A DNA stretch of 64,000 nucleotides from assembly GCF_001644605.1 (NCBI RefSeq), contig NZ_CP011388.1, positions 1,202,501-1,266,500 of the forward strand. Direction: 5' to 3'. Every line of letters begins with the position of its first letter. The first letter of the stretch is position 1. The translations under genes and the position numbers were made by a program. This DNA comes from Paenibacillus swuensis (GTDB lineage: Bacteria > Bacillota > Bacilli > Paenibacillales > DY6). This document shows positions 3,456 to 30,293 of this stretch, one piece after another. The notes under the pieces are model-generated. The model saw only the letters and a program-made list of their open reading frames with translations, did not search any database and had not been told where the DNA came from.

Positions 3456-4205
3456 ATGCTATACGAGGATCAAGTACGTGAAGAAGTTTCTCTTTGGGCC
3501 AAAAAACTATTCAAGCAGCCGGGCATGTTGGAGCAAGCGTCGAAGAAGCTCGGTATGAAAGTCAACAGCCTGATTCCGCAGAAAGCGCATGATGCCATAA
3601 CCGCCGCTGTGCGAACCATTGTGAAGACCACCCTGTTCGGCGCGGAATACACGCCCAAGCGTAAAGTGACCTTTACAACATTGGAGGAAGCCGACCGGCA
3701 AGCGAAGGATGCCATTTCCCTTTATCGCAAAATTGCCGCCGCCGAAGGCGCAGGTACAGGGGCCGGCGGGATTCTCATGAACGTCGTGGACTTCCCGGCT
3801 CTGATCGCCATCAAGATGAAATTTCTGTTCGAGCTCTCCCACATTTACGGATACAGCACAACGCCGTTCTCCGAGCGCATCTTCATCTTATCCGTGTTCC
3901 AGCTGGCCTACTCCGGCCCCACAGAGCGTCAGCGTATGTTCCAGCGGATTCGCAACTGGGAGACCGAGAAGCAGCAATGGTCTTCCGATGTAAACTATCA
4001 CAAGAACATGGATTGGGAAACATTCCAGAAAGAGTACCGGGACGCCATCGATTTCCGCAAAATGTTACAAATGATCCCCGGCATCGGCGCCGTCGCAGGC
4101 GCTTGGGCGAATTACAACATCCTTGAAGAGCTCGGCGAGACGGCTATGAACAGCTATCGGTTGCGGCGTTTGGCGGAAGCAACACAAAGACGGCCTGTTG
4201 AATGA
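3456..4205 (+). CDS. EcsC-family protein
   Basis: The 249-aa product resembles the EcsC family, named after the third gene of the Bacillus ecs transporter operon. Typical features are the central glycine-rich segment near GAGTGAGGILMNVVDFP, the following amphipathic helix, and the C-terminal IPGIGAVAGAWANYN loop. There is no signal peptide, and the biochemical function of the family is unknown. It stands alone with a GGGGG ribosome site, and no ecsA or ecsB genes are nearby, so a role in that transporter is not supported here. A strong terminator overlaps its stop codon. Confidence 0.88.
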   Translation: MLYEDQVREEVSLWAKKLFKQPGMLEQASKKLGMKVNSLIPQKAHDAITAAVRTIVKTTLFGAEYTPKRKVTFTTLEEADRQAKDAISLYRKIAAAEGAGTGAGGILMNVVDFPALIAIKMKFLFELSHIYGYSTTPFSERIFILSVFQLAYSGPTERQRMFQRIRNWETEKQQWSSDVNYHKNMDWETFQKEYRDAIDFRKMLQMIPGIGAVAGAWANYNILEELGETAMNSYRLRRLAEATQRRPVE

Positions 4206-4222
4206 GGGGCCGTCTTTGTTTA
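4185..4222 (+). terminator. Rho-independent terminator of the EcsC-like gene
   Basis: CAAAGACGGCC (4185-4195) pairs with GGCCGTCTTTG (4208-4218), followed by TTT. The stem overlaps the stop codon. Confidence 0.85.
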
Positions 4223-4255
4223 TCAATGTATGAAATAACATTCACACTATATTCC

Positions 4256-4291
4256 TTGACAAGAATATTCAATATGAGGTATATTTAGTCT
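4256..4291 (+). promoter_or_regulatory. Sigma-A-type promoter giving a probable leaderless ArsR mRNA
   Basis: TTGACA at 4256-4261 and TATATT at 4280-4285 are 18 bp apart. Transcription should begin at about 4291-4292, which is the ATG itself, and no ribosome site precedes it. The A+T-rich symmetric AATATTCAATATGAGGTATA between the boxes is a plausible operator for the ArsR protein (autorepression, inferred). Confidence 0.7.
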
Positions 4292-4627
4292 ATGAATACG
4301 ACACTCACCGCTTTAGCTGAACCCAACCGCTTGCAGATCGTCGAACTCTTGCGCGACGAACCTCTGTCCGTCGGGGAAATTGCCGAACGGCTCAACCTTC
4401 GCCAGCCGCAAGCTTCCAAGCATCTGAAGGTGCTCATGGAGGCCGGGCTCGTTGAAGTTCACCCCGTAGCCAATCGGCGGATCTACAAGCTTCGGCCCCA
4501 GCCTTTTCAAGAGCTGGATACATGGCTGGATGCCTTTCGCCGGACTTGGGAAGAGAGGTTCGACCGCCTGGACGACTACCTGCGGGAACTGCAAGAGAAA
4601 GATTCGAAGCCCGACACCCAAGATTAA
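4292..4627 (+). CDS. ArsR-family winged-helix transcriptional regulator
   Basis: The 111-aa protein has the ArsR winged helix: recognition helices near LSVGEIAERLNLRQPQASKH (residues 28-47) and the wing near VANRRIYKL. The usual metal-binding cysteine motif (CVC) is absent, so it is not a metal sensor. It precedes a double-AHSA1 gene by 90 bp, an arrangement common among metal-independent ArsR regulators that control a downstream SRPBCC gene. The C-terminal helix, rich in Arg, Glu and Asp, is probably for dimerisation. The start is set by the promoter (leaderless), as no Shine-Dalgarno sequence is visible. Confidence 0.92.
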   Translation: MNTTLTALAEPNRLQIVELLRDEPLSVGEIAERLNLRQPQASKHLKVLMEAGLVEVHPVANRRIYKLRPQPFQELDTWLDAFRRTWEERFDRLDDYLRELQEKDSKPDTQD

Positions 4628-4717
4628 CTTTGCCGCAATACCATGCGGTAACTCCGCATCCTGACAGGAGAGGAGGATCTCTGCCGATTAATTTATTTAT
4701 GAAGAGGAGGATTTATT

Positions 4718-5668
4718 TTGACCACTGAATTTGCTAATGAGAGTCATGCTGTCATGGAAGACAAGGCATTCGTCATGGAACGCCTGTTTAACGCCCCGCT
4801 CGAGCTGGTGTTTAAGGCCTTCACGGAACCGGAACATCTGGCGCGCTGGTGGGCGCCGCCGGGCTATTTCATTCCGTTATGCACTATTGATCTTGCTGCT
4901 CAAGGTATATGGCGTTACTCCATGCGTCCGGTGAACGGAACCCCCGAAGATGATCACTACGTTGAGGCCGTTTATCAGGAGGTTAAGCCGCTGGAATGTC
5001 TGGAGTACACAAACACGTTCGTGGATAAAGAAGGAAACACCGTTGCGGGGATGCCGACAATGCTCGTAACCGCAACATTCACGGAAATGGACGGCCAGAC
5101 AAAGCTCATCAACCGGGTGTCATTTGAAACCGATGCCGAGTTCCAAACAACAGTAGGTATGGGTATGATTCAAGGGACGACGCAAGCGTGGAGTAACTTG
5201 GACCAGCTTTTGCAAGAGATGCCTAGGGAAGTTGTCATTATGCGTAGGTTCCAAGCGCCTCGTGAGCTCGTGTTTAAAGCTTGGACAGATCCTGAGAATA
5301 TAGGCAAATGGTGGGGTCCGACAGGCTTTACCACCACTACGCACCATAGGGATGTAAGAACCGGCGGCAGTTGGCGCTATGTGATGCATGGTCCCGATGG
5401 CGTGGATTATGACAATTTAATCGAATATGTCGAGATTGCGAGTCCGAATCGACTCGTTTACAAGCACGGCACCGGCGCAGAGAACGATCCGCACCAGTTC
5501 CACGTCACGGTCACTTTTGCCGAAGTGGATGGTCAAACCAACCTTACGTTACGGACGTTGTTTAACACCGCTGAGCAACGGAAGATGGTCGTGGAACAAT
5601 TTGGCGCCATTGAAGGCGGCAAGCAGACATTGAACCGCTTGGCCGAATATTTGGAGCACAACGCTTGA
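4718..5668 (+). CDS. Tandem AHSA1/SRPBCC-domain protein
   Basis: The 316-aa product carries two copies of the AHSA1-like SRPBCC (START/Bet v1) fold, roughly residues 15-155 and 165-313. Each begins with the typical F.APRELVFKAWTDPE..KWW motif: FNAPLELVFKAFTEPEHLARWW, then FQAPRELVFKAWTDPENIGKWW (shown here in part). Such domains bind hydrophobic ligands. The fusion of two in one chain is less common than a single domain. Translation starts at TTG with GAGGAGG 7 nt upstream. It is probably co-transcribed with, or controlled by, the upstream ArsR gene. It ends in a strong terminator. Confidence 0.9.
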   Translation: MTTEFANESHAVMEDKAFVMERLFNAPLELVFKAFTEPEHLARWWAPPGYFIPLCTIDLAAQGIWRYSMRPVNGTPEDDHYVEAVYQEVKPLECLEYTNTFVDKEGNTVAGMPTMLVTATFTEMDGQTKLINRVSFETDAEFQTTVGMGMIQGTTQAWSNLDQLLQEMPREVVIMRRFQAPRELVFKAWTDPENIGKWWGPTGFTTTTHHRDVRTGGSWRYVMHGPDGVDYDNLIEYVEIASPNRLVYKHGTGAENDPHQFHVTVTFAEVDGQTNLTLRTLFNTAEQRKMVVEQFGAIEGGKQTLNRLAEYLEHNA

Positions 5669-5735: not shown

Positions 5736-5920
5736 GTAGTAGCGTTACCGCATCTAATGTGGGGAATGACCCTCCGCCGACATGCATTTGTAGCGATATC
5801 GCGCCTATTGCGGCTGGGTGCTAGGTTTGCAGCCTCAATCTGTTCCATTAGTAGCGATTTCGCACCTATGCTGTAATCTCCGCTCCGTAATCGAGCATTT
5901 GTAGCGATATCGCGCCTATG
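5736..5920. repeat. Short palindromic intergenic repeats (TAGCGATATCGCGCCTA type)
   Basis: Three clear copies, 5786-5811 (CATTTGTAGCGATATCGCGC...), 5845-5870 (GTAGCGATTTCGCACCTATG) and 5896-5920, plus a degenerate one at 5736-5757, are spaced 50-60 bp apart. The core GCGATATCGC is a perfect palindrome. A related unit (TGAGCGCAATCGCGCCAATG) sits after the AraC gene at 9242-9261. Confidence 0.75.
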
Positions 5921-5937
5921 TTGCTTGGATCAGGGGG

Positions 5938-6145
5938 TCATAGCAACGGCAATGGCAACGGCTGAGTCAACGGCTGAGTCAACGGGATATCCGGCATACA
6001 GGGGCTGAGGAGGAGTTTGAACTCCCCTTCAAGCTCCGCATTCTTCCTTGGAATGCGTTCTTGAAAGTCCCCCTGCCGGAAATTTCCCAGCACGACCCAT
6101 TGCTTAGGACCGAGAGCAGCAGAGTAGCTGTCTGACTTAACCCGT
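5938..6145 (-). pseudogene. Start-less open stretch, possible gene remnant
   Basis: Downstream of the GH36 gene on the same strand, about 65 codons read without a stop (segment includes KQWVVLGNFRQGDFQERIP and ends in an LTQPLTQP microsatellite). There is no in-frame ATG and a stop codon immediately precedes it. It has protein-like composition but no family I recognise. It could be the tail of a decayed gene or chance. Confidence 0.3.
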
Positions 6146-26689: not shown

Positions 26690-27490
26690 TTAATAAAATT
26701 TAACCGTCTTATATTGGGAAGCCGCCTTGAACAGCGTTGGTGTCTTGCCGTGTTGTACATAGGCCGCATCGTAAGTGGTGTCCACCGTCTGCCACTTGTT
26801 ATCAATATATACTTCGTTCCAAGCATGGTACGTGGCAGGGGCATCGGCATGGTACCCTTTCACGACCTTGGTGGGAAGCCCCGCGCTTCGGGCCATAGCC
26901 GCGAACAAGGTCGCGAAATCGTAGCAGATCCCCTTGGAGGATTTATAAATCTCATCTACCTCCGGCGTGTATTTCGAGGAAACGGTTTTCGCTTCAAGTG
27001 TGTCATACTTTATATTTTTGGTGATATATGTGTATATGGCTTTTAGTTTAGCTTGATCGGTTTCGGCGCGTAAGGTCAATTCACGTGCTTTAATCACAGC
27101 TGACGTGCTATTCGACCAGTTGATCAAGGAGATGGATTGCAGGAATACGTCGTTACCGACCCCCTGCTTCAGTGTGAGCTCTTCTTGGGTAATAACTTTA
27201 TATTTAGTATCGCTTACCGATTGCGCGATCAGCACCTTATATACCCCGTCCCCTAACTGCAGCGGATATTGGGCTCCCGGGCTCATTCTGTAGTCGTAGC
27301 TGACTTTCCCCTTCGTAACACGGATGATCGTTTCCCGATCCGGAGATTGTTCATAGTTTACCCTTAACACACCTTTAGTCAAAGCTTCGCTGTCGAATAG
27401 TGTCATGGACGACGCGGCCGCCACGGAACCGAAGGGAGCCAAAAGACCCAAAACTATAACAAACATCGATCTCCATACCCATTTAGACAC
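26690..27490 (-). CDS. Secreted transglutaminase-like (papain-fold) protein
   Basis: The 266-aa protein has an N-terminal signal peptide (residues 1-25, ending SVAAA) and a C-terminal transglutaminase-like domain with Cys189 in KGICYDF, His222 in YHAWNEV and Asp237 in VDTTYD. Such proteins act as proteases, amidases or cross-linkers outside the cell. A GTG start with GGGGGAG is used. Its leader is a cyclic-di-GMP-I riboswitch. The neighbouring upstream genes encode a sortase and an LPKTG adhesin, so it may act on the cell surface or biofilm matrix (inference). Confidence 0.9.
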   Translation of the reverse strand: MSKWVWRSMFVIVLGLLAPFGSVAAASSMTLFDSEALTKGVLRVNYEQSPDRETIIRVTKGKVSYDYRMSPGAQYPLQLGDGVYKVLIAQSVSDTKYKVITQEELTLKQGVGNDVFLQSISLINWSNSTSAVIKARELTLRAETDQAKLKAIYTYITKNIKYDTLEAKTVSSKYTPEVDEIYKSSKGICYDFATLFAAMARSAGLPTKVVKGYHADAPATYHAWNEVYIDNKWQTVDTTYDAAYVQHGKTPTLFKAASQYKTVKFY

Positions 27491-27497
27491 AAAAAAA

Positions 27498-27610
27498 CTC
27501 CCCCTTCGGTAACTGGCTGTCTTTTTAGTAGAATTCTACTAAGGAAGACCCTTTAGTTTTGCGTCTTTAGCTTTCGCTAAATTTGCCTTTATCGGTGAAA
27601 GCACCTTATT
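27498..27610 (-). promoter_or_regulatory. Cyclic-di-GMP-I (GEMM-I) riboswitch
   Basis: Read on the minus strand, the leader contains AAAGGCAAATTTAGC, a GAAA tetraloop, GCTAAAGACGCAAAAC, then AAAGGGTC, a palindromic P3 hairpin (27525-27542), AGCCAGTTACCGAAGG. These are the conserved blocks of the GEMM-I aptamer in order. P1 can form between CUUUC (27597-27601) and GAAGG (27503-27507), the latter overlapping the GGGGGAG ribosome site (27498-27504). Control is therefore probably at translation; the sign (on or off) is not settled. No rho-independent terminator is evident. Confidence 0.9.
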
Positions 27611-27654
27611 TATTAATCTAAATGTACTATAGGATCGACAGCTTGTATATAGAC

Positions 27655-28341
27655 TTACGACCTATGATTTGGAATTATTTGTCCTTTCAGAATGAGTCTA
27701 TGGGTCGGATTTTTCATAGGATGGCACGTAACCAGCGTAATTTCGCGTAAATTCTCCTTTCCTTTCAGCACCCCAACCTCTTCGGGAAGCACAATCTCCT
27801 TGCTTGTCAGTTTATATCGAAATTTCTCTTTTCCCGTGTCGACTTCAACTACATCACCGATCTTCATCTCGCCTAACCGGTTAAAATTCTTTCCGTATGT
27901 ACGGTTACGATGACCTGCAATGGCGTAATTGCCGATTTGGCCGGCTTTACCGGTGTTGGCAATGCTGGCGACTGACCGTGACAAGTTTTGTTTCGTAGCG
28001 TTGGTCAGGATTGGCAAGTTCAGATCAATTTTGTTGATGATCAAGACGCCCTCGACGTTCTTTAACTTTACTTCAGCCGCGGGCGGTTTTTTCTGTGACG
28101 GGGCAGGCTGCGCTGTCATTGGCTTCGTTGCGGCAGAATCACTGTCGTCCGGTGGAAGATCGGCCTGCTCCACAATATCTTCTACCGTCGTCTCCAGAGC
28201 GATCTGTTGCATGTTCTGTTGCCATTGTTCCAAGATCCGATTCTGTTGATACGTCTCGTACCGGTCTTTAACAGCGGGATAGAGCAAGATCATAAATCCC
28301 GTCAGAATGATGAATGCCGCAAGTAATTTCTGTCTCAACAT
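27655..28341 (-). CDS. Sortase (probably class D)
   Basis: The 228-aa enzyme has an N-terminal membrane anchor (residues 7-22), a Pro/Gln-rich spacer and a sortase barrel with catalytic His144 (AGHRNRTYG), Cys206 (TLVTCHP) and Arg215 (THRLIL). Sortases cut LPXTG-type signals and attach the protein to peptidoglycan. Its dedicated substrate is very likely the LPKTG adhesin encoded 66 bp upstream on the same strand. AAGGGAG precedes the ATG at 7 nt. The class assignment rests on overall motif style only. Confidence 0.93.
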   Translation of the reverse strand: MLRQKLLAAFIILTGFMILLYPAVKDRYETYQQNRILEQWQQNMQQIALETTVEDIVEQADLPPDDSDSAATKPMTAQPAPSQKKPPAAEVKLKNVEGVLIINKIDLNLPILTNATKQNLSRSVASIANTGKAGQIGNYAIAGHRNRTYGKNFNRLGEMKIGDVVEVDTGKEKFRYKLTSKEIVLPEEVGVLKGKENLREITLVTCHPMKNPTHRLILKGQIIPNHRS

Positions 28342-28359
28342 AATTAACTCCCTTCATAC

Positions 28360-28396
28360 AAAATGGAAGCGAGCCTCGTAAGGTCTCGCTTCCAAT
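28360..28396 (-). terminator. Hairpin between adhesin and sortase genes (leaky terminator or processing stem)
   Basis: TGGAAGCGAG (28364-28373) pairs with CTCGCTTCCA (28385-28394), followed on the minus strand only by ATTTTG. The short T-run suggests partial read-through into the sortase gene. Confidence 0.6.
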
Positions 28397-28407
28397 GGTC
28401 ATGTTCT

Positions 28408-30147
28408 TTAGCGCTTGACGAGAACTTTCCGTCTAAGTACTGCGAAGCCCAACAGGATCACGGCTACACCGAGAGCTTGCGTCTTCCATGGACTGGCTTC
28501 GCCGGTCTTAGGAAGCATCGGTGCAATCGTTTCATCGGGAACGGCCGTTCCCAAAGGAACGTCTACATCTGTTTCAATGATGTCTACATCCTCCGGAGGA
28601 TCAACACGGACCGGTTCCGTAGGTACCTCTATGTTTCCGGTTGGCGTCACATCCGGTACCGGCGTTAATTCGATCGGCGGTACCGTCGTCGGTGGTATCG
28701 TAGTTGGTGGCACCGTCGTTGGCGGATCCGTTGGCGGATTCGTCGGCGGTGGGTTTGTCGTCGGCGGATCCGTTGGCGGCGGATTCGTCGGTGGTGGATC
28801 TGTTGGCGGCGGATTCGTCGGCGGTGGATCTGTTGGCGGCGGATTCGTCGGCGGTGGATCTGTCGGCGGTGGATCTGTCGGCGGTGGATCCGTCGGCGGC
28901 AATTTAGCATTTGTTATCGTTTTGCAATAACATGTCGTAGCGGATACATCAATAGTAAAGAGATGCTCCGTCGGATCTAACTTGTAGCCGGCCGGCGCTG
29001 TTTTCTCAATGAGTACATAGGCGCCGGTAATCAGCTTCTTAAATACAGCCTTCCCGACCGAATCCGTGGTCAGTGTATTCACCAGAGTCCGTTCCGCGTC
29101 AGATACGCGGTAAAGCTCGAAACTCGCTCCGCTGAGCAACAACGAAGGGTCGGCTTCATCGACTTTCTGGATGGTAAGCTTCCCATTCGCCCCTGACGGA
29201 TCAAATGCAGCTGTGACTGTAAGCGGGGCGGACCCATTCTCATCCCAGTCTACACGGGCTTGATTCACATATTCGACGTTGCCTGGAACTACAGGCCCGC
29301 TTAACCAGTCTTCATCGAAATAGGTCGCGTAACTGACGGTATGCGGGCCCGAAATCGGAGACTGCAGAGTAAGGTCGAAACCGTCGGTTGCCGCAGGTGT
29401 AACGGATTCGCGCAGTACCAGATTATACGCTGCCGGCGCGCCTCCATCTGCAGTGACCGTCAGCGATCCCGGCACGAACTGAAGTCCGCCCTGCGTAAAC
29501 GTATCCTGCAGGTAGACGTTGGACATGATCTTGCTGTCCCCGTTCAGCTTGACGGTCCAGACCACGGTTTGAGCCGCGGCATCTACAGCGCCAGCCCGTT
29601 TGCTGATAATCACCTGGTCGATCTCGCGTCCAGACACATCCTTATACGTGTTGGAATACACCGAGTTGATCACCATCGTCGTGCCGGTCACGCGTTGAAC
29701 GGCGGCTGTTTTATACTCTATTTTGAAAGCTGATGTAACATCCTGATGGAATTGCACATGAAAACCAGTCTGACCTGCTGCTGTTGTGGGAGTCACGGTG
29801 TACTCGGATGAAGCCAGTACTGTACCTTTCACTTCAAATCCGCCTGAATTAAACGTAATCGGGTACACTTGAAGAGAATTTGGAACTAGCTGCTGCGTAT
29901 CTGGAAATAAATCTGTCAAAATGGCATCCGCAGCAGGAACATCCTTCTGATTGTAGTTATACTTGATCGCCCAAGAAATCGTCTGCGTCGCCGCGTCATA
30001 ATTCGTGGAATCCTTGCTCAGGAACTTCTGGCTACCGACTTCAGCCGCTTGCGCGCCCGACTGCCCTAGTAACCCCGTAACGTTAACCAACAGTGTCATA
30101 AACATAATCGTGACCAGCAACGCGCTTACCTTTTTACGAAGAATCAT
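28408..30147 (-). CDS. LPKTG-anchored adhesin with collagen-binding-type and SpaA-like domains
   Basis: The 579-aa surface protein has a signal peptide (residues 1-34), a region of about 290 residues resembling the collagen-binding/adhesin Ig-like domains (IEYKTAAVQRVTGTTMVINSV, WTVKLNG), a SpaA/prealbumin-like domain (GKLTIQKVDE...GASFELYRV...IEKTAPAGYKL), a Pro/Thr/Asp-rich stalk of PPTDPPPTNP repeats, and a C-terminal LPKTG, hydrophobic helix and RRKVLVKR tail. The SpaA-like domain probably carries an isopeptide bond. The start at 30147 is chosen because the upstream frame lacks a signal; AAGGAG lies 12 nt away. It is sorted by the adjacent sortase. Confidence 0.9.
   Translation of the reverse strand: MILRKKVSALLVTIMFMTLLVNVTGLLGQSGAQAAEVGSQKFLSKDSTNYDAATQTISWAIKYNYNQKDVPAADAILTDLFPDTQQLVPNSLQVYPITFNSGGFEVKGTVLASSEYTVTPTTAAGQTGFHVQFHQDVTSAFKIEYKTAAVQRVTGTTMVINSVYSNTYKDVSGREIDQVIISKRAGAVDAAAQTVVWTVKLNGDSKIMSNVYLQDTFTQGGLQFVPGSLTVTADGGAPAAYNLVLRESVTPAATDGFDLTLQSPISGPHTVSYATYFDEDWLSGPVVPGNVEYVNQARVDWDENGSAPLTVTAAFDPSGANGKLTIQKVDEADPSLLLSGASFELYRVSDAERTLVNTLTTDSVGKAVFKKLITGAYVLIEKTAPAGYKLDPTEHLFTIDVSATTCYCKTITNAKLPPTDPPPTDPPPTDPPPTNPPPTDPPPTNPPPTDPPPTNPPPTDPPTTNPPPTNPPTDPPTTVPPTTIPPTTVPPIELTPVPDVTPTGNIEVPTEPVRVDPPEDVDIIETDVDVPLGTAVPDETIAPMLPKTGEASPWKTQALGVAVILLGFAVLRRKVLVKR
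28700..28910 (-). repeat. Coding microsatellite for the PPTDPPPTN stalk
   Basis: Near-identical 15-30 bp units (GGCGGATCCGTTGGCGGC type on the plus strand) encode the proline-rich stalk of the adhesin. Such tracts can change length by slippage. Confidence 0.8.
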
Positions 30148-30293
30148 TGACGGACATCTCTCCTTCTCCCATATCAATACTTTATCCCCAGCTTTAACTA
30201 AAATGCCTGTACAATATATTAACATATTTTAGAAGATTAGAATCTAGAACTAGTTAAATCTACTATATTATTACAATAGTTCTTATATTTAGA

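Follow-up and report, generated by a model that had tools for sequence, protein, structure and literature searches.

What does a cyclic di-GMP (c-di-GMP) riboswitch control when it stands in front of a secreted enzyme of the transglutaminase fold, with a sortase and a wall-anchored adhesin encoded next to it? The question arises from a stretch of 64,000 nucleotides of Paenibacillus swuensis (NZ_CP011388.1, positions 1,202,501-1,266,500 of the forward strand), called the window below. On its minus strand an adhesin gene, a sortase gene, a c-di-GMP-I aptamer and the gene of the enzyme, designated TGL here, follow one another in this order. The answer that we favour, with a confidence slightly above even, is that TGL is a protease gated by the riboswitch, which would shed the adhesin when c-di-GMP is low.

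A c-di-GMP-I aptamer precedes TGL in 79 of 80 relatives

A GEMM-I aptamer had been proposed for the TGL leader in the original prediction, and the covariance models agreed. RF03167 (c-di-GMP-I-GGC) was the sole Rfam RNA family matched in the window, at 27504-27596 on the minus strand, with 64.9 bits for a gathering threshold of 59 (E 4.5e-13). At the same place the parent family RF01051 scored 75.2 bits (gathering 35), and R1, a covariance model made in the present analysis, 89.1 bits. The leader RNA is almost certainly a genuine c-di-GMP-I aptamer. Bases equivalent to G20, A47 and C92, which we take to be the Vc2 numbering of the contact bases, are found in it and are invariant in A2, an alignment of 24 aptamers. 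An A at position 20 would suggest cyclic GMP-AMP (cGAMP); the canonical bases therefore point to c-di-GMP rather than cGAMP as the ligand, and the window copy probably binds it. A different ligand class for the GGC variant was rejected, because RF01051 is the better-scoring model in bits and none of the three contact bases departs from the canonical one. The 5.0-Mb genome encodes 11 GGDEF and 7 EAL domains, so that c-di-GMP is presumably made in the host.

Scanning 84,980 species genomes yielded 370 relatives. Family counts refer to the best 80 of the 370, which include Paenibacillus, Brevibacillus, Tissierella, Alkaliphilus, Syntrophomonas, Desulforamulus and other Bacillota. In 79 of these 80 an aptamer lies directly upstream of TGL, single in 47 cases and in tandem in 32, and the 16 nearest orthologues from the order's other families are each immediately preceded by one or two c-di-GMP-I aptamers. 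The sole exception, L090, is on a chimeric-looking contig of a metagenome-assembled genome, where the sortase frame runs into the TGL start (5820-6060) and the riboswitch is missing, probably through misassembly or deletion. Six further members of the small-TGL family have the aptamer; it was found at none of 13 loci of longer PF01841 paralogues and at none of four long distant homologues.

Sortase genes accompany TGL at 67 of the 80 loci, mostly on the same strand and 0.8-1.15 kb upstream. An LPxTG protein gene is present at 35, a count covering neighbourhoods that often end a few hundred bases downstream of TGL. Within the order, independent neighbourhoods show three arrangements: adhesin-sortase-TGL, sortase-TGL-adhesin and TGL-adhesin-sortase. 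Judged by gene content and position, the aptamer and TGL, with their linkage to sortase and adhesin, are a conserved module.

Some relatives depart from the common layout. In L046 (8936-9022, minus) and L056 (7673-7773), the sortase gene has a second c-di-GMP-I aptamer in front of it, with a T-rich stretch behind the aptamer, and may be under the same c-di-GMP signal. In L120 (3521-3616), a weak 31-bit aptamer-like element lies directly before an LPKTG adhesin, beside a riboswitch-controlled TGL; substrate and enzyme are perhaps under opposite control there. The TGL of genome G141 (L299, about 4140-4935) is split between frames, with in-frame TGA codons and two aptamers kept, and is possibly a pseudogene.

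The ribosome site is fused to P1

Contact between the P1 stem and the ribosome site GGGGGAG, also part of the original prediction, was found again: at its 3' end P1 passes into this site (27504-27498), which sits 7 nucleotides before the GTG start at 27490. In all 79 aptamer-bearing relatives the P1 3' strand (CCGAAAG) continues into the Shine-Dalgarno (SD) sequence (CCGAAAGGAGAG...AUG). Facing the SD in the same register is an anti-SD that reads, depending on the clade, GCUUUC, ACUUUC, AACUCUC or GAUAAAGCU. The two sides coevolve. In 29 representatives below 60% identity, mean pairing energy was -8.73 kcal/mol, versus -7.54 for permuted partners, and none of 20,000 partner permutations reached the true value (p<5e-5); with 13 representatives below 50% identity, p was 0.013.

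With the SD inside a conserved P1 extension opposite a coevolving anti-SD, the aptamer state would shut the ribosome site. Several tandems have a terminator-like GCTTTTTTT at the end of their upstream aptamer, and together with the SD-fused P1 this makes c-di-GMP a likely OFF signal for the enzyme. The sign, which had been left to lacZ fusions, can thus be proposed from the leader itself. As a rule, class I c-di-GMP switches of Clostridioides difficile also act "off" (PMC6200980).

The opposite sign could apply in P. swuensis if CUCCCUUCGG, which lies within the open reading frame (ORF), sequestered the SD in the ligand-free state and aptamer folding freed it. The minimum-energy fold of the full leader does pair the SD and the P1 3' strand with 27429-27438. 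However, the codon-shuffle p of this arm is only 0.047 and the median p in relatives 0.48, so its conservation is not clear. Moreover, when the aptamer fold is forced in short window transcripts, the mean accessibility of the SD drops from about 0.4 to 0.23 instead of rising, and the family-wide anti-SD in P1 argues for OFF. We rejected CUCCCUUCGG as the switch, consider an ON switch very unlikely, and regard the arm as possibly an extra sequestering element, or chance.

The OFF reading is itself weakened in the window by three observations: the free fold of the leader also pairs the SD partly, the in-ORF arm can bury the SD without ligand in a longer free transcript, and the gap between forced-aptamer and free folds is only about 0.4-5 kcal/mol, varying with transcript length. 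As the SD can also be paired in free folds, the OFF sign is less sure in P. swuensis than in the family.

Two further pairings were noticed around P1. The local hairpin GGUG-CUUU-CACC likely competes with P1 when the RNA is ligand-free; by eye, its counterparts are CGGUG..CACCG in the closest relatives and GUUGACUUUUCAAC, with other letters, in L103 and L104. In the forced-aptamer fold, UCUAAAUG in the first codons pairs with CAUUUAGA in the leader (8 base pairs), so that the stem of the aptamer-bound form reaches across the start codon. Pairing of the start codon with the far 5' leader was rejected as a family feature, as no coevolution was found (p 0.56).

TGL is a secreted enzyme of the transglutaminase fold

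A secreted protein with an intact Cys-His-Asp triad had been predicted, and this stands. TGL bears a Sec-type signal peptide and matches PF01841 (Transglut_core) with 93.5 bits (cut-off 23, 1.2e-26), and C189, H222 and D237 are unchanged in 17 relatives. Pfam gives only PF01841 and PF04473, with no match to the LapG-family profile (BTLCP, DUF920), and no HEXXH zinc site occurs in the 266 residues, hence TGL is not of the zinc endopeptidase type of the Pro-Pro endopeptidases (PPEPs). The AlphaFold model has a mean predicted local distance difference test (pLDDT) of 80. Its Foldseek matches include the putative cysteine protease 3isr, TglA of Streptococcus pyogenes (9crn), TgpA, LapG and the endoisopeptidase PeiP (8z4f), as well as human TG2, TG3 and factor XIII. 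Overall template-modelling (TM) scores are low, so that these matches back the fold and not a family. "Transglutaminase" is only a fold label for TGL. A role in defence was rejected, PADLOC giving no hit.

True transglutaminases and other amidases share this fold, which weighs against a protease. TGL could be a cross-linker of adhesin or wall proteins, through which c-di-GMP would tune matrix stiffness rather than release; PF01841 covers transglutaminases, the three human enzymes are among the structural matches, and the adhesins carry Collagen_bind and SpaA-type domains. An OFF switch, however, would place a cross-linker in the motile state, contrary to expectation, and putative cysteine proteases and LapG are among the best relatives of solved structure. 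The conserved motif on the anchor side of the adhesins, described below, speaks more for cutting, and no Gln or Lys is conserved in it. We hold cross-linking to be quite unlikely. An adhesin-releasing protease would better fit the OFF sign and the precedents of LapG and PPEP-1.

Sortase, adhesin and gene order

The neighbours of TGL (Table 1) had been named as a sortase and its probable substrate. A sortase and an LPKTG adhesin are upheld, and the start of the adhesin has to be moved, since a position near 30147 suits the ribosome site and signal peptide better than the listed ORF start at 30225. The sortase matches PF04203 (99.6 bits, cut-off 26.6, 1.4e-28) and TIGR01076 (82.8 bits, cut-off 39.35). 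It falls under the cut-offs for class C (119.2 vs 160 bits), class E (95.8 vs 160) and class D (64 vs 165), and its profile scores place it in the general sortase family. The adhesin anchor matches TIGR01167 with 22.1 bits (cut-off 15.9).

Table 1. Features of the cassette and its leader RNA, in window positions.
Feature	Position	Strand	Basis
c-di-GMP-I aptamer (P1, P2 with GAAA tetraloop, P3)	27503..27597	-	RF03167, RF01051, R1, A2
Shine-Dalgarno GGGGGAG, fused to P1 3' strand	27498..27504	-	sequence; CCGAA(A/G)GGAG fusion in 79 relatives
Anti-Shine-Dalgarno GCUUUC, 5' side of P1	27597..27602	-	pairs with GGGAGU; coevolution
Local hairpin GGUG-CUUU-CACC	27594..27605	-	by-eye comparison with relatives
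First codons UCUAAAUG, complementary to leader CAUUUAGA (27617-27624)	27480..27487	-	forced-aptamer fold
In-ORF CUCCCUUCGG, complementary to P1 3' strand and Shine-Dalgarno	27429..27438	-	minimum-energy fold
Secreted Transglut_core enzyme TGL, 266 amino acids	26690..27490	-	PF01841
TGL catalytic codons	C189 26924-26926, H222 26825-26827, D237 26780-26782	-	invariant triad
Sortase	27655..28341	-	PF04203, TIGR01076
LPKTG wall-anchored adhesin, Pro-rich stalk	28408..30147	-	PF05737 Collagen_bind, PF17802 SpaA, TIGR01167
LPKTG sortase motif of adhesin	28501..28515	-	sequence, TIGR01167
VPLG motif in adhesin, 15 residues before LPKTG	28549..28560	-	TGL-linked adhesins; class-wide contrast

Between sortase and TGL no promoter- or terminator-like site was found by a scan limited to consensus matching; a terminator-like sequence lies 3' of TGL. 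The riboswitch may therefore act within an operon, setting the enzyme apart from the adhesin. Riboswitch control of the window sortase or adhesin was rejected, as Rfam finds only one aptamer in the window and no second one before either gene.

Other observations concern the surroundings. In the gap between adhesin and sortase (28343-28402) a hairpin, GGAAGCGAG...CTCGCTTCC, is followed by ATTTTG, and is possibly a weak terminator lowering sortase and enzyme relative to the adhesin. The gene immediately before the adhesin, on its strand, encodes a glycoside hydrolase family 3 protein (PF00933; 30343-31704, minus). The genome has five c-di-GMP-I aptamers, the window copy included. The four others lie outside it, at L041 (6595-6690), L042 (6412-6508, minus), L043 (5787-5876, minus) and L044 (6460-6549); the products of the genes nearest downstream are an SLH-domain protein, a PilZ protein, a protein with a GNAT domain, whose gene follows after a gap, and a large VWA/TIG protein.

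A motif before the wall anchor goes with TGL

Nearly all TGL-linked adhesins carry [VI]PLG, or a near variant, 5-80 residues before LPxTG, and in 36 of 37 a [VIL]PxG occurs at most 120 residues before the anchor. To set this against genomes lacking the enzyme, 38 LPxTG proteins of 17 TGL-bearing genomes were compared with 72 of 52 TGL-lacking ones. Strict [VI]PLG was present in the last 80 residues of 20/38 versus 0/72 proteins, or 13/17 versus 0/52 genomes (p 6e-11). The relaxed form [VIT]P[LKRTAQ]G, in the 80 residues before the anchor, was found in 30/38 versus 0/72 proteins and in 17/17 versus 0/52 genomes. TGL-lacking relatives have homologous stalk domains without the second, anchor-proximal copy of the motif. 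The difference is also seen inside genus g49, where G081 and G183, which have TGL, carry VP[AT]G, and G203, G232, G257 and G273, which lack TGL, do not. The VPLG-type motif is a candidate recognition or cleavage site of TGL.

Several points weigh against this assignment. The relaxed class was shaped partly by the data on which it was tested, the window adhesin and the G081 protein stand in both the discovery and the test sets, and the genomes are related, so that the p-values overstate certainty. TGL and sortase co-occur, and the motif could therefore belong to the sortase pathway. Finally, three g43 genomes (L296-L298) have a divergent 266-residue TGL with a riboswitch, and neither a sortase neighbour nor the motif in an LPxTG protein, which raises the question of whether their enzymes act on a different substrate.

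These points also bear on another possibility, namely that the target of TGL is a component of the wall, such as the stem peptides of peptidoglycan as with PeiP, or a different protein, the adhesin link being coincidental and the motif serving the co-inherited sortase or passage through the wall. The structural match to PeiP would agree with it, as would the divergent g43 enzymes and the confounding of motif and TGL at the many loci where sortase and TGL stand together. On the other hand, the motif is absent from LPxTG proteins of the TGL-lacking Bacilli examined, and in L097, L120 and L127, where no local sortase was detected, TGL has as its neighbour an adhesin that carries the motif or one much like it. 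We judge a target other than the adhesin unlikely.

Discussion

Adhesin shedding by TGL, the reading that we prefer, would proceed as follows. At high c-di-GMP the aptamer would fold and P1 close, its GCUUUC/GGGAGU extension burying the SD; no TGL would be made, and the sortase-anchored adhesin would stay on the wall. At low c-di-GMP, P1 would open and free the ribosome site, and TGL would be synthesized and secreted. It would then cut the stalk of the adhesin close to the wall, probably at the VPLG just before LPxTG, and with the adhesin shed the cell would leave the surface. Proteolysis and the cut site are what we infer from the sign of control, the gene cassette, the motif and the precedents. 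More tentatively, and with a confidence a little short of even, we extend the scheme to a Bacillota-wide adhesin-shedding system made of a sortase, an LPxTG adhesin tagged with [VIT]PxG, and a tag-specific TGL protease shut by a c-di-GMP riboswitch. Of the initially proposed c-di-GMP switch acting through a transglutaminase-like surface enzyme, the link of riboswitch, sortase and adhesin is retained, with aptamers at 79/80 and sortases at 67/80 loci; the enzymatic name is not, beyond the fold.

Two known systems are close to this scheme. In Pseudomonas fluorescens, the transglutaminase-like Cys-His-Asp protease LapG releases LapA at low c-di-GMP (PMC3032545). TGL resembles the LapG/LapA/LapD system in its fold and triad, in an adhesin encoded nearby and in the proposed block of release by c-di-GMP. 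LapG (DUF920), however, is regulated post-translationally, through the receptor LapD, whereas the window enzyme is under RNA control and its adhesin is sortase-anchored. In C. difficile, zmpI (PPEP-1) is the target of a class I riboswitch and cleaves the sortase-anchored CD2831 (PMC6200980, PMC11460543). PPEP-1/CD2831, and PPEP-2 of Paenibacillus alvei, share with the present cassette a secreted enzyme, a class I OFF riboswitch and a sortase-anchored adhesin of the collagen-binding type, the OFF sign being likely and the cleavage putative for TGL. PPEPs are zinc proteases that cut Pro-Pro bonds, whereas TGL has a transglutaminase-like fold with a Cys-His-Asp triad, and VPLG as candidate site. 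In Bacillus thuringiensis a c-di-GMP riboswitch acts on a Gram-positive collagen-binding surface protein, CbpA; there it precedes the adhesin itself, whereas in the window it controls a neighbouring enzyme (PMC7423583).

The view that such a switch was not described proved too strong. Among the genes that a survey of 2025 found enriched downstream of tandem c-di-GMP-I riboswitches in Bacillota are transglutaminase-like ones of COG1305 (PMC12452182). They are very likely the same family, which has tandem aptamers at 32/80 loci here; the survey gives them one row of an enrichment table, with no sortase/adhesin cassette, expression platform, sign, substrate motif or mechanism. No paper found, subscription papers being outside the search, joins c-di-GMP, transglutaminase, sortase and adhesin, or brings LPXTG and VPLG together. 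The bare pairing of riboswitch and COG1305 was already known; what appears to be new is the conserved cassette, the OFF platform fused to the ribosome site and the linear motif.

How Gram-positives other than C. difficile leave surfaces when c-di-GMP falls is largely open, and the cassette is a concrete and widespread candidate, carried by many soil and gut Gram-positives, among them Paenibacillus, Brevibacillus, Tissierella and Alkaliphilus. If the proposal is true, TGL would match LapG and PPEP-1 by convergence. Next to Lap and PPEP, c-di-GMP would then have a third, independent way of governing adhesin release, and the code that pairs protease with substrate could be read from sequence. The proposal offers a testable function for a riboswitch-linked COG1305 family so far seen only in an enrichment table.

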